A model generated the notes under the pieces. That model had not been told where the DNA came from and made no database searches. It saw only the letters and a list, made by a program, of their open reading frames with translations. The position numbers were made by a program, and so were the translations under genes. From Ferruginibacter sp. (GTDB taxonomy: Bacteria; Bacteroidota; Bacteroidia; Chitinophagales; Chitinophagaceae): a stretch of 64,000 bases of DNA. Shown one piece after another: positions 13,237 to 14,737 of the stretch; the stretch's first letter is position 1, and each line of letters starts with the position of its first letter. The stretch lies in the NCBI GenBank assembly GCA_014379625.1, contig JACMLJ010000051.1:1-64000 (forward strand), in the 5' to 3' direction.

Positions 13237-13788
13237 TTATTTTTTCTTCCACACCTGGAATGAGTAAGCATATGCATGTTTCTCATCCGTGGGGAAATCT
13301 TCATTGGATATTAATTCCCAAATATTTTCATCGATCACCGGGAAAAAAGTATCCCCATCTACCACAGCGTGTACCCTTGTTAAATAAATAAGATCCGCGA
13401 TGGGCATGGATTGCTTGTAAATTTCACCGCCACCTATTATGAATATTTGTTTAGCATTTGTTTCCGCGGCTTTATGAATTGCATCTTCCAGGTCCGGGGC
13501 CGCTATAGCACCTTCCGCCTTCCAATCCGCCTTGCGGGTGATCACAATATTTATTCTTCCCGGTAAGGGCTTATTCACTTCCGCAAAAGTTTTTCTTCCC
13601 ATAATCACAGGGAAACCCCAGGTAGTATTCTTAAAAAATTTAAGGTCGTTGGGTAAATTCCATACCAGGTGGTTGTTTTTTCCGATGACGTTATTGGTGG
13701 AGGCGGCAACTACAAGACCGATCACCCTGCCATCATCCTGACCCTGACGGGAAGATTTTGTAACTTTTAAATTTGTAGTTTCATTCAT
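13237..13788 (-). CDS. folA: Dihydrofolate reductase
   Basis: It reduces dihydrofolate to tetrahydrofolate with NADPH. Motifs are VVAASTNNVIGKNNHLVWNLPNDLK with the substrate-binding Asp, the cofactor segment VIMGRKTF, and IIGGGEIYKQSM. From the ATG at 13788 it is 183 aa; about 20 residues precede the conserved core, longer than E. coli FolA. An upstream in-frame ATG at 13878 would add 30 residues without family character. It lies 118 bp after thyA, the enzyme that produces its substrate, a common pairing. Confidence 0.94.
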   Translation of the reverse strand: MNETTNLKVTKSSRQGQDDGRVIGLVVAASTNNVIGKNNHLVWNLPNDLKFFKNTTWGFPVIMGRKTFAEVNKPLPGRINIVITRKADWKAEGAIAAPDLEDAIHKAAETNAKQIFIIGGGEIYKQSMPIADLIYLTRVHAVVDGDTFFPVIDENIWELISNEDFPTDEKHAYAYSFQVWKKK

Positions 13789-13906
13789 AATCGTATGAGC
13801 TATGTCTTTTATTTTGTAAAAAGAATTTGGTAATAACCCGATGTATAGTAAGATACTGCTCAATGTCGCATACACCAAACTTCCTCCTGGATTGAGGGAC
13901 TGTTTT

Positions 13907-14737
13907 TTAAACCGCTACCGGCGCCTTGATCGACGGGTGAGACTGGTAATTCAACAACTCAAAATCCTCGTATTTAAAATCGAAAATGTTTTTAACTGCA
14001 GGGTTGATCTTCATTTGTGGCAGGGGAAAGGGTGTTCTGCTTAGTTGCAGGCCTGCCTGTTCAAAATGATTGTTGTACAAATGAACATCGCCGAATGAAT
14101 GAATAAATTCGCCCGGTTCCATATCGCAAACCTGGGCGATCATCATGGTAAGTAAAGCATAGGATGCAATGTTGAAAGGCACTCCAAGGAATACATCTGC
14201 CGAACGCTGGTATAACTGGCAGGAGAGCCTGCGCCTTTGCTCCCCCTTCATGGGGTTAGGGGGTGTTGTATAAAACTGGAACAAACAGTGACAGGGCATG
14301 AGCTTCATCTTTGGAAGATCGGCTACATTCCACGCGCTGATGATCATCCGCCTGCTATCGGGATTATTTTTTATTTGATGGATAAGGTCCTTAACCTGGT
14401 CCACTTCTACGCCGTCTGCTCCCTCCCAGCTACGCCACTGTTTGCCGTAAACCGGTCCCAGGTCGCCATTTTCATCGGCCCATTCATCCCATATTTTTAC
14501 CTGGTGTTCTTTTAAAAAAGCAATATTGGTTTCGCCGCTTAAAAACCAGAGTAGTTCGTAAATAATACTTTTCATGTGACATTTTTTGGTAGTCACCAAT
14601 GGAAAGCCTTTACTAAGGTCGAAACGCAACTGGTGCCCAAAAACACTCCGGGTACCGGTACCCGTCCGGTCACTTTTATCATTACCGGTTTCAATGATAT
14701 GTTTTAGAAGCTGAAGGTATTGCTGCATGGGCTGCAA
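13907..14737 (-). CDS. thyA: Thymidylate synthase with an in-frame insert
   Basis: ThyA methylates dUMP to dTMP using methylene-tetrahydrofolate. The 276-aa protein has the expected segments: [20 protein letters not shown], the catalytic cysteine in [10 protein letters not shown] near residue 149, [20 protein letters not shown], and a final KAPVAV. E. coli ThyA has 264 residues. The excess lies at residues 157-170 ([14 protein letters not shown]), where homologues have about five residues of a surface turn (VADGK in E. coli as I recall). The DNA of that insert (14228-14269) contains the arms CCCCCT/AGGGGG. The catalytic core is intact. folA follows on the same strand. Confidence 0.96.
14228..14269. 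repeat. Palindrome-bearing in-frame insert in thyA
   Basis: Arms CCCCCT (14242-14247) and AGGGGG (14258-14263) flank a 10-bp loop. It codes for an extra loop in ThyA. The same pattern of CCCC-rich palindromes is seen inside uvrA. Confidence 0.65.

Follow-up and report, generated by a model that had tools for sequence, protein, structure and literature searches.

The core of the extra loop in the thymidylate synthase (ThyA) of this Ferruginibacter genome belongs to a family of palindromic repeats of Bacteroidota. The loop is probably a single translated copy of this REP-like family, i.e. a unit that would have spread as a small non-autonomous element and landed in the gene in frame. Units of the same make-up are found at the ends of cassettes that carry a DUF559 nuclease, and the autonomous form of the REPIN-like palindrome may be the one with DUF559. 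These cassettes lay outside the sight of the initial annotation of this DNA and are a more important part of the findings than the ThyA loop itself.

The extra loop of ThyA

The window, i.e. the whole stretch of 64,000 nucleotides that was analysed, carries thyA on the minus strand at positions 13907-14728. Read from ATG the protein has 273 residues, and an alternative TTG start at 14737 gives 276. The profile PF00303 (9e-127) covers the protein at positions 1-266 of 266, which indicates a full-length enzyme, and the solved chains 6auj and 1qqq align with it end to end over their 264 residues. The sole gap in the alignment with 6auj, the best solved relative, is 9 residues as printed and falls at the loop. 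The AlphaFold model, based on a 7-row alignment, is poor (mean pLDDT of 56.3), and no conclusion is drawn from it here. A dihydrofolate-reductase-like frame, recognised by eye, lies downstream of thyA on the same strand (13237-13878).

From the reading of the strand, the relatives and the 6auj alignment, the loop comprises 14 codons (42 nt, positions 14228-14269, minus strand) between the peptides FQFY and LSCQLYQRS; its short form in relatives is VADGK or VANGK. These positions are exactly the ones for which the initial annotation had described a palindrome-coded extra loop. Its figure of 12 extra residues has to be corrected to 9 in comparison with 6auj and 1qqq, because the TTG start had been included in the count. 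One unit of the repeat family, CCCCCTAACCCCATGAAGGGGGA, was located by family searches at 14241-14263 (minus strand). In the minus-strand reading its left arm is CCCCCT (14258-14263) and its right arm AGGGGG (14242-14247), and both are paired in the RNA fold. On the plus strand CCCCCT stands at 14242-14247 and AGGGGG at 14258-14263, so the arms named in the initial annotation form a perfect 6-nt pair.

When up to 3 mismatches are allowed, the window contains the pattern CCCCCTAACCCCATGAAGGGGGA a single time, and none of 100 shuffles contains it. Under the codon usage of the window, the probability of this exact synonymous coding of PPNPMKGE is 4.7e-5, and an inverted repeat as long as this one arose in 11 of 2000 synonymous recodings of the peptide. 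Shorter sub-patterns are not rare by chance (CCCCCTNNNNGGGG in 12 and TTAGGGGG in 95 of 100 shuffles). The extra loop with palindromic DNA at 14228-14269 is confirmed as a real feature.

A family of palindromic repeats in Bacteroidota

A search of 98 related genomes with CCCCCTAACCCCATGAAGGGGGA at up to 3 mismatches gave 53 places, distributed over 15 of the genomes, compared to one place for the reversed-pattern control. The genome of the window has no exact copy besides that in ThyA, and the next best copies have 2 and 3 mismatches. Looser CCCCCT...AGGGGG palindromes gave 10 matches per strand in this genome, ThyA included, versus 1 per strand in the control. For a sister flavour, CCTCACCCCYRACYCCTCTCC (CCTC), there are 123 places when cassette ends are counted, spread over 29 of 59 genomes of the genus (control 2), and one exact copy of it sits in the thyA gene of genome G043, at the very position of the loop.

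An exact scan with CCCCCTAACCCCATGAAGGGGGA over contigs from one genome per species returned at least 120 stretches. In the 80 exact-copy stretches listed, one name is 'uncultured bacterium' and the remainder are Bacteroidota, many of them Mucilaginibacter. The position of the unit was evaluated for the 112 exact copies, among the matches listed, that lie at least 300 nt from the locus end, and a copy was taken to be inside a long frame if the frame had at least 150 codons, with 40 codons on each side of the unit. Among these matches 9 of 112 copies are inside long frames, compared to 2358 of 3600 control positions, and the other 103 lie outside, which bears out the link that had been proposed between the loop DNA and intergenic Bacteroidota repeats. 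Six of the nine in-frame exact copies among the matches listed are the ThyA loop (5 Mucilaginibacter and 1 Chitinophagaceae record).

The 120 loci contain 198 units at up to 2 substitutions. In a unit, a C-run (A) is followed by a pyrimidine arm (B), and a short loop joins the latter to the complementary purine arm (B'). The units are mostly intergenic, and there most of them stand in convergent doublets. Of 72 pairs of neighbours no more than 2.5 kb apart, 53 are convergent, and in 47 of these 53 the spacer is below 200 nt.

As a plain RNA hairpin, the exact Mucilaginibacter unit is unexceptional (z -0.61), and the CCTC-flavour unit folds well (z -3.16). The fold of the ThyA unit is likewise unexceptional (z -0.51), and an RNA hairpin function was rejected for it. 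Rfam at gathering level gave no match in the window or in the loci L286, L065 and L316.

DUF559 cassettes and their ends

DUF559 (PF04480, Vsr-like) is present in 49 of the 98 relatives; 51 loci were examined out of 75 matches listed. The 27 host-joined copies match the profile and keep its conserved residues (D52 in 26 of 27; E63, D65 and H69 in 27 of 27). The genome of the window has one DUF559 match, joined before ArgB (L165) and bracketed by CCCCCAGCCCCT[G/A]AAGGGGAGGTCTTC. In L065 a related unit brackets the gene on both sides, its two copies being inverted, and in L272, a Chitinophagaceae record, the gene has a copy of the ThyA consensus unit on either side.

The hosts were assigned for 20 long DUF559 frames with NCBIfam. 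Around the insert, leucine tRNA ligase (LeuRS) was found 7 times, at two sites, methionine tRNA ligase and methionine synthase 3 times each, and also IcmF and acetate-CoA ligase; in further frames an amino-terminal insert is followed by acetylglutamate kinase (2 frames) or a MurU-like enzyme. Two more of the 20 may be other architectures, namely L144 (HsdR) and L138 (a weak match, PglX-like). Nine further frames were assigned to hosts via their junction peptides. Hint/intein domains are absent from the families listed for the 20 proteins (one of the lists giving 25 of 84 entries), as they are from the Pfam results for 10 of the 20. In those cassettes that were scanned, nothing was recognised as a transposase.

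At the ends of the cassettes, an inverted flank pair scoring at least 18 occurs at 33 of 50 DUF559 loci, versus 0 of 100 shuffles and 2 of 120 control places; the other 17 of the 50 loci are without a strong pair. An inward-facing A-B-loop-B' unit is present at 28 of 51 loci on the left, at 31 on the right and at 26 on both sides, i.e. 25 loci do not have it on both, and the values for 180 background places are 0, 2 and 0, respectively. An earlier arm search (arms of at least 7, a setting that misses the CCCCC flavour) found arms on both sides in 20 of 51 loci and in 24 of 1055 control windows, and was superseded by the search for the unit.

Three side observations concern the junctions. The IcmF locus L117 has a long readable linker, formed by a threefold repetition of the cassette ends at steps of 45 nt. 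In L144 units of the form TCCCCTCC..GGAGGGG follow each other in 42-nt steps on both sides of DUF559 in the HsdR-like frame (from about 74, 1336 and 2630). In some of the loci L148, L149, L150, L164 and L165 the cassette before ArgB or the MurU-like enzyme seems to replace the host start codon, which may lead to synthesis of the enzyme as a fusion protein.

The cassettes also admit an explanation in which DUF559 is a homing endonuclease that invades existing palindromes spread by other means, with the ThyA loop as an unoccupied site. We consider this possible but less likely than not. Homing at alleles would be expected to group DUF559 by insertion site, and the tree, which has 100 columns and many unresolved forks, does so (LeuRS site 1, 99; MetH, 97; ArgB, 97; MurU, 95; all starred), the insertion site requiring 12 changes where the minimum is 11. 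Moreover, palindrome units are more numerous than DUF559 genes. A weak counterpoint is that the CCTC flavour is commoner in genus genomes with DUF559 (23 of 30 versus 6 of 29, Fisher 2.3e-5; 20 of 30 versus 6 of 29, 5.7e-4, if 3 genomes with matches only at cassette ends are counted as without), both values coming from hand tallies in which kinship is ignored.

Empty, occupied and solo sites in conserved enzymes

LeuRS site 1, just ahead of the motif TMPGYAGSSWY, was readable in 49 genomes of the genus. There is no insert in 39 of them, a full cassette in 6 (G044, G036, G008, G004, G047 and G050) and, by eye, a palindrome alone in 3 (G000, which is the genome of the window, G054, and G041 with other arms); one, G040, is unclear. 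In G044 the left end of the cassette reads GACCTCACCCCCAACCCCTCTCCAAAGGAGAGGGG and has its inverted mate on the right, and in G000 the site reads GTCAACCTCATCCCTAACGCCTCTCCAAAGGAGAGGGGGACTGGAGAGGTC, i.e. the left end followed by a right-like tail. Judged from these sequences, the solo unit of G000 appears as a collapse between two cassette ends would leave it. G047, the neighbour of G000 on the ThyA tree (support 94, not starred), has the cassette at this site. At LeuRS site 2, 6 of 51 genus loci have a cassette and one (G011) a solo unit. A second, A+T-rich inverted-repeat family (GTGAATAGTCAATCG type) was seen by eye, in frame at site 2, in L286, L287, L288, L289 and L335.

A solo unit lies between the B12 and MeaB domains of IcmF in G000; in G037 this place is taken by a cassette with repeated units. 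Solo units are also found inside MnmH, an M20 deacylase, a histidine kinase, a copper ATPase and TrpE, as well as between two domains (L064) and ahead of a domain (L041). The unit is inside a long frame in 8 of 13 chosen loci and in 12 of 26 CCTC loci, these 12 consisting of 9 LeuRS cassette ends, the ThyA of G043 and 2 solo units. Other frames of the unit are read in other proteins (SPFRGLGG, APQPPEGG).

The ThyA loop among relatives

Of 51 ThyA loops read from the genus, 25 have the short form (VADGK type) and 26 a long one. The initial annotation had named, as evidence against its reading, a loop present in most Chitinophagaceae ThyA with no matching DNA repeats elsewhere. That case does not apply: a long loop is present in 26 of 51 ThyA of the genus, and matching repeats do exist elsewhere. 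Five of the 26 long loops are palindromic by eye, namely those of G000, G050 (imperfect arms), G037, G041 and G043, the last with a different flavour, ACCTCACCCCCAACTCCTCTCCAAATGGAGAGAGGAG. The other 21 are not palindromic, so the loop could predate the palindrome. Twenty loops of other families were chosen for their long spans. Among these, the loop of G374 is the exact consensus unit and that of G104 a further flavour. A DUF559 cassette in ThyA was found neither among the loops read (51 from the genus and 20 from other families) nor among the class-wide matches listed. The ThyA match is partial or in two pieces in 17 genomes; three that are broken near the loop were opened, and two have unread bases and one lies at a contig end. 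In L440 the thyA contig of G423, from another family, stops right at the loop, a possible assembly break caused by the repeat.

The long loops could also go back to one ancient insertion in ThyA that has decayed in most lineages, instead of several insertions at the same spot; we regard such a single origin as somewhat unlikely. Within one family, sister loops share their length, and the differences between them are substitutions (PPNPLKGELKGK versus PADASKGETRGK); to judge by these letters they point to decay by substitution. On the other hand, G043 with its CCTC flavour is sister (98, starred) to the short-loop G036, and G104 is placed among short-loop rows. On a quick, loop-free ThyA tree of 109 rows, the short and long states require 22 changes, at least 7 of them forced by starred branches, and the 10 palindromic rows require 10 changes, gain and loss being indistinguishable on this tree.

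Proposed spread of the units

We infer that the units move, with DUF559 as a candidate mover. The palindrome units would be small non-autonomous elements whose spread may depend on cutting by DUF559 or on copying during repair at palindromes. A unit of this kind would have landed in frame at the tip of a ThyA hairpin. There it could be tolerated, since each strand of the unit has at least one frame free of stops, and the extra loop would decay or be lost in time. The nuclease would keep its cassette at a site and sometimes reach new sites, and the solo palindromes would be leftovers or small passengers of the cassette. A broader reading, which we hold to be nearly an even call, is that of a new class of mobile element, i.e. 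an in-frame, unspliced DUF559 cassette with peptide-coding palindromic ends that sheds solos like the ThyA loop, a protein-coding REPIN counterpart in which a Vsr-like nuclease takes the role of RAYT. In such an element the cassette ends would code for readable peptide and could therefore enter essential enzymes without inactivating them.

It is improbable that the units are REP/REPIN elements of the ordinary kind, which RAYT tyrosine transposases would mobilise. The convergent doublets do resemble REPINs as described in PMC3116915, genes of the Y1-transposase family are present in 50 of 59 genus genomes, and some inverted flank pair occurs in 9 of 23 RAYT loci. Against this, none of the 23 loci has a unit on either side (10 of 33 loci were left out as too short), and within 10 nt of the 198 units GTAG was found 15 times and CGTC 2 times. 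RAYT was rejected as the mobiliser on the 0 of 23 genus loci and on the loci L112-L115 of the genome of the window, which are without a matching palindrome. That the loop was kept for protein function, the palindromic DNA being a by-product of Pro, Lys, Gly and Glu codons, is very improbable: PPNPxKGE-like loops do recur in several families, but the exact DNA identity with intergenic repeats, the low probability of the synonymous coding and the use of other frames of the unit in other proteins argue against it.

With the ThyA loop as a translated repeat unit, repeat DNA adds peptide to essential enzymes in Bacteroidota, and the repeats of this phylum are tied to a candidate mobilising nuclease. 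DUF559, a Pfam family of unknown role, thereby gains a testable function. The several states of one LeuRS site in near relatives are a natural experiment on the entry of selfish DNA into essential genes without splicing. No paper among the matches listed from the open-licence literature links DUF559 with both palindromes and in-frame cassettes.

Comparison with known systems

REPINs are described as inverted doublets of short palindromes in intergenic DNA, with single copies proposed as remnants (PMC3116915). The Bacteroidota units are likewise short and palindromic and form inverted intergenic doublets. They differ in that most of them have no GTAG or CGTC tag, and in that DUF559 stands where RAYT would be expected. 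CGTC REPs have been reported from Bacteroidetes in a paper that, in its account of these repeats, saw no dedicated transposase for them (PMC3733652). The same source describes intragenic REPs, including REPs at about one common recB site in two Xanthomonas species, and Rickettsia palindromic elements (RPEs), i.e. palindromic repeats that are read in frame inside genes (PMC3733652), so both kinds of intragenic repeat were already known.

The parallel with RPEs that was drawn in the initial annotation holds as an analogy and not as membership. As in the RPEs of that description, the Bacteroidota unit is palindromic repeat DNA present in multiple copies (although the genome of the window has no second exact match to the ThyA copy) and is read in more than one frame, and it lies in frame in conserved genes, i.e. 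ThyA, LeuRS, IcmF and the five solo-unit hosts named above. It differs in being about 23-50 nt long, mostly intergenic and of a make-up common to the ends of nuclease cassettes, the RPE families being compared by description only.

In inteins and free-standing homing endonucleases, a nuclease domain lies in frame inside essential enzymes and groups by insertion site, and the same can be said of DUF559. The DUF559 cassettes differ from inteins in that they are bounded by palindromes and in that the families listed for the 20 proteins do not include Hint. MITEs and their autonomous parents occur as solo ends, as short doublets and as a cassette with equal inverted ends. The DUF559 cassette differs from these in having a Vsr-like nuclease, no transposase being recognised in those scanned; the forms are nevertheless alike, since the Bacteroidota units too are found as solo ends, as short doublets and as a DUF559 cassette with the same inverted ends.
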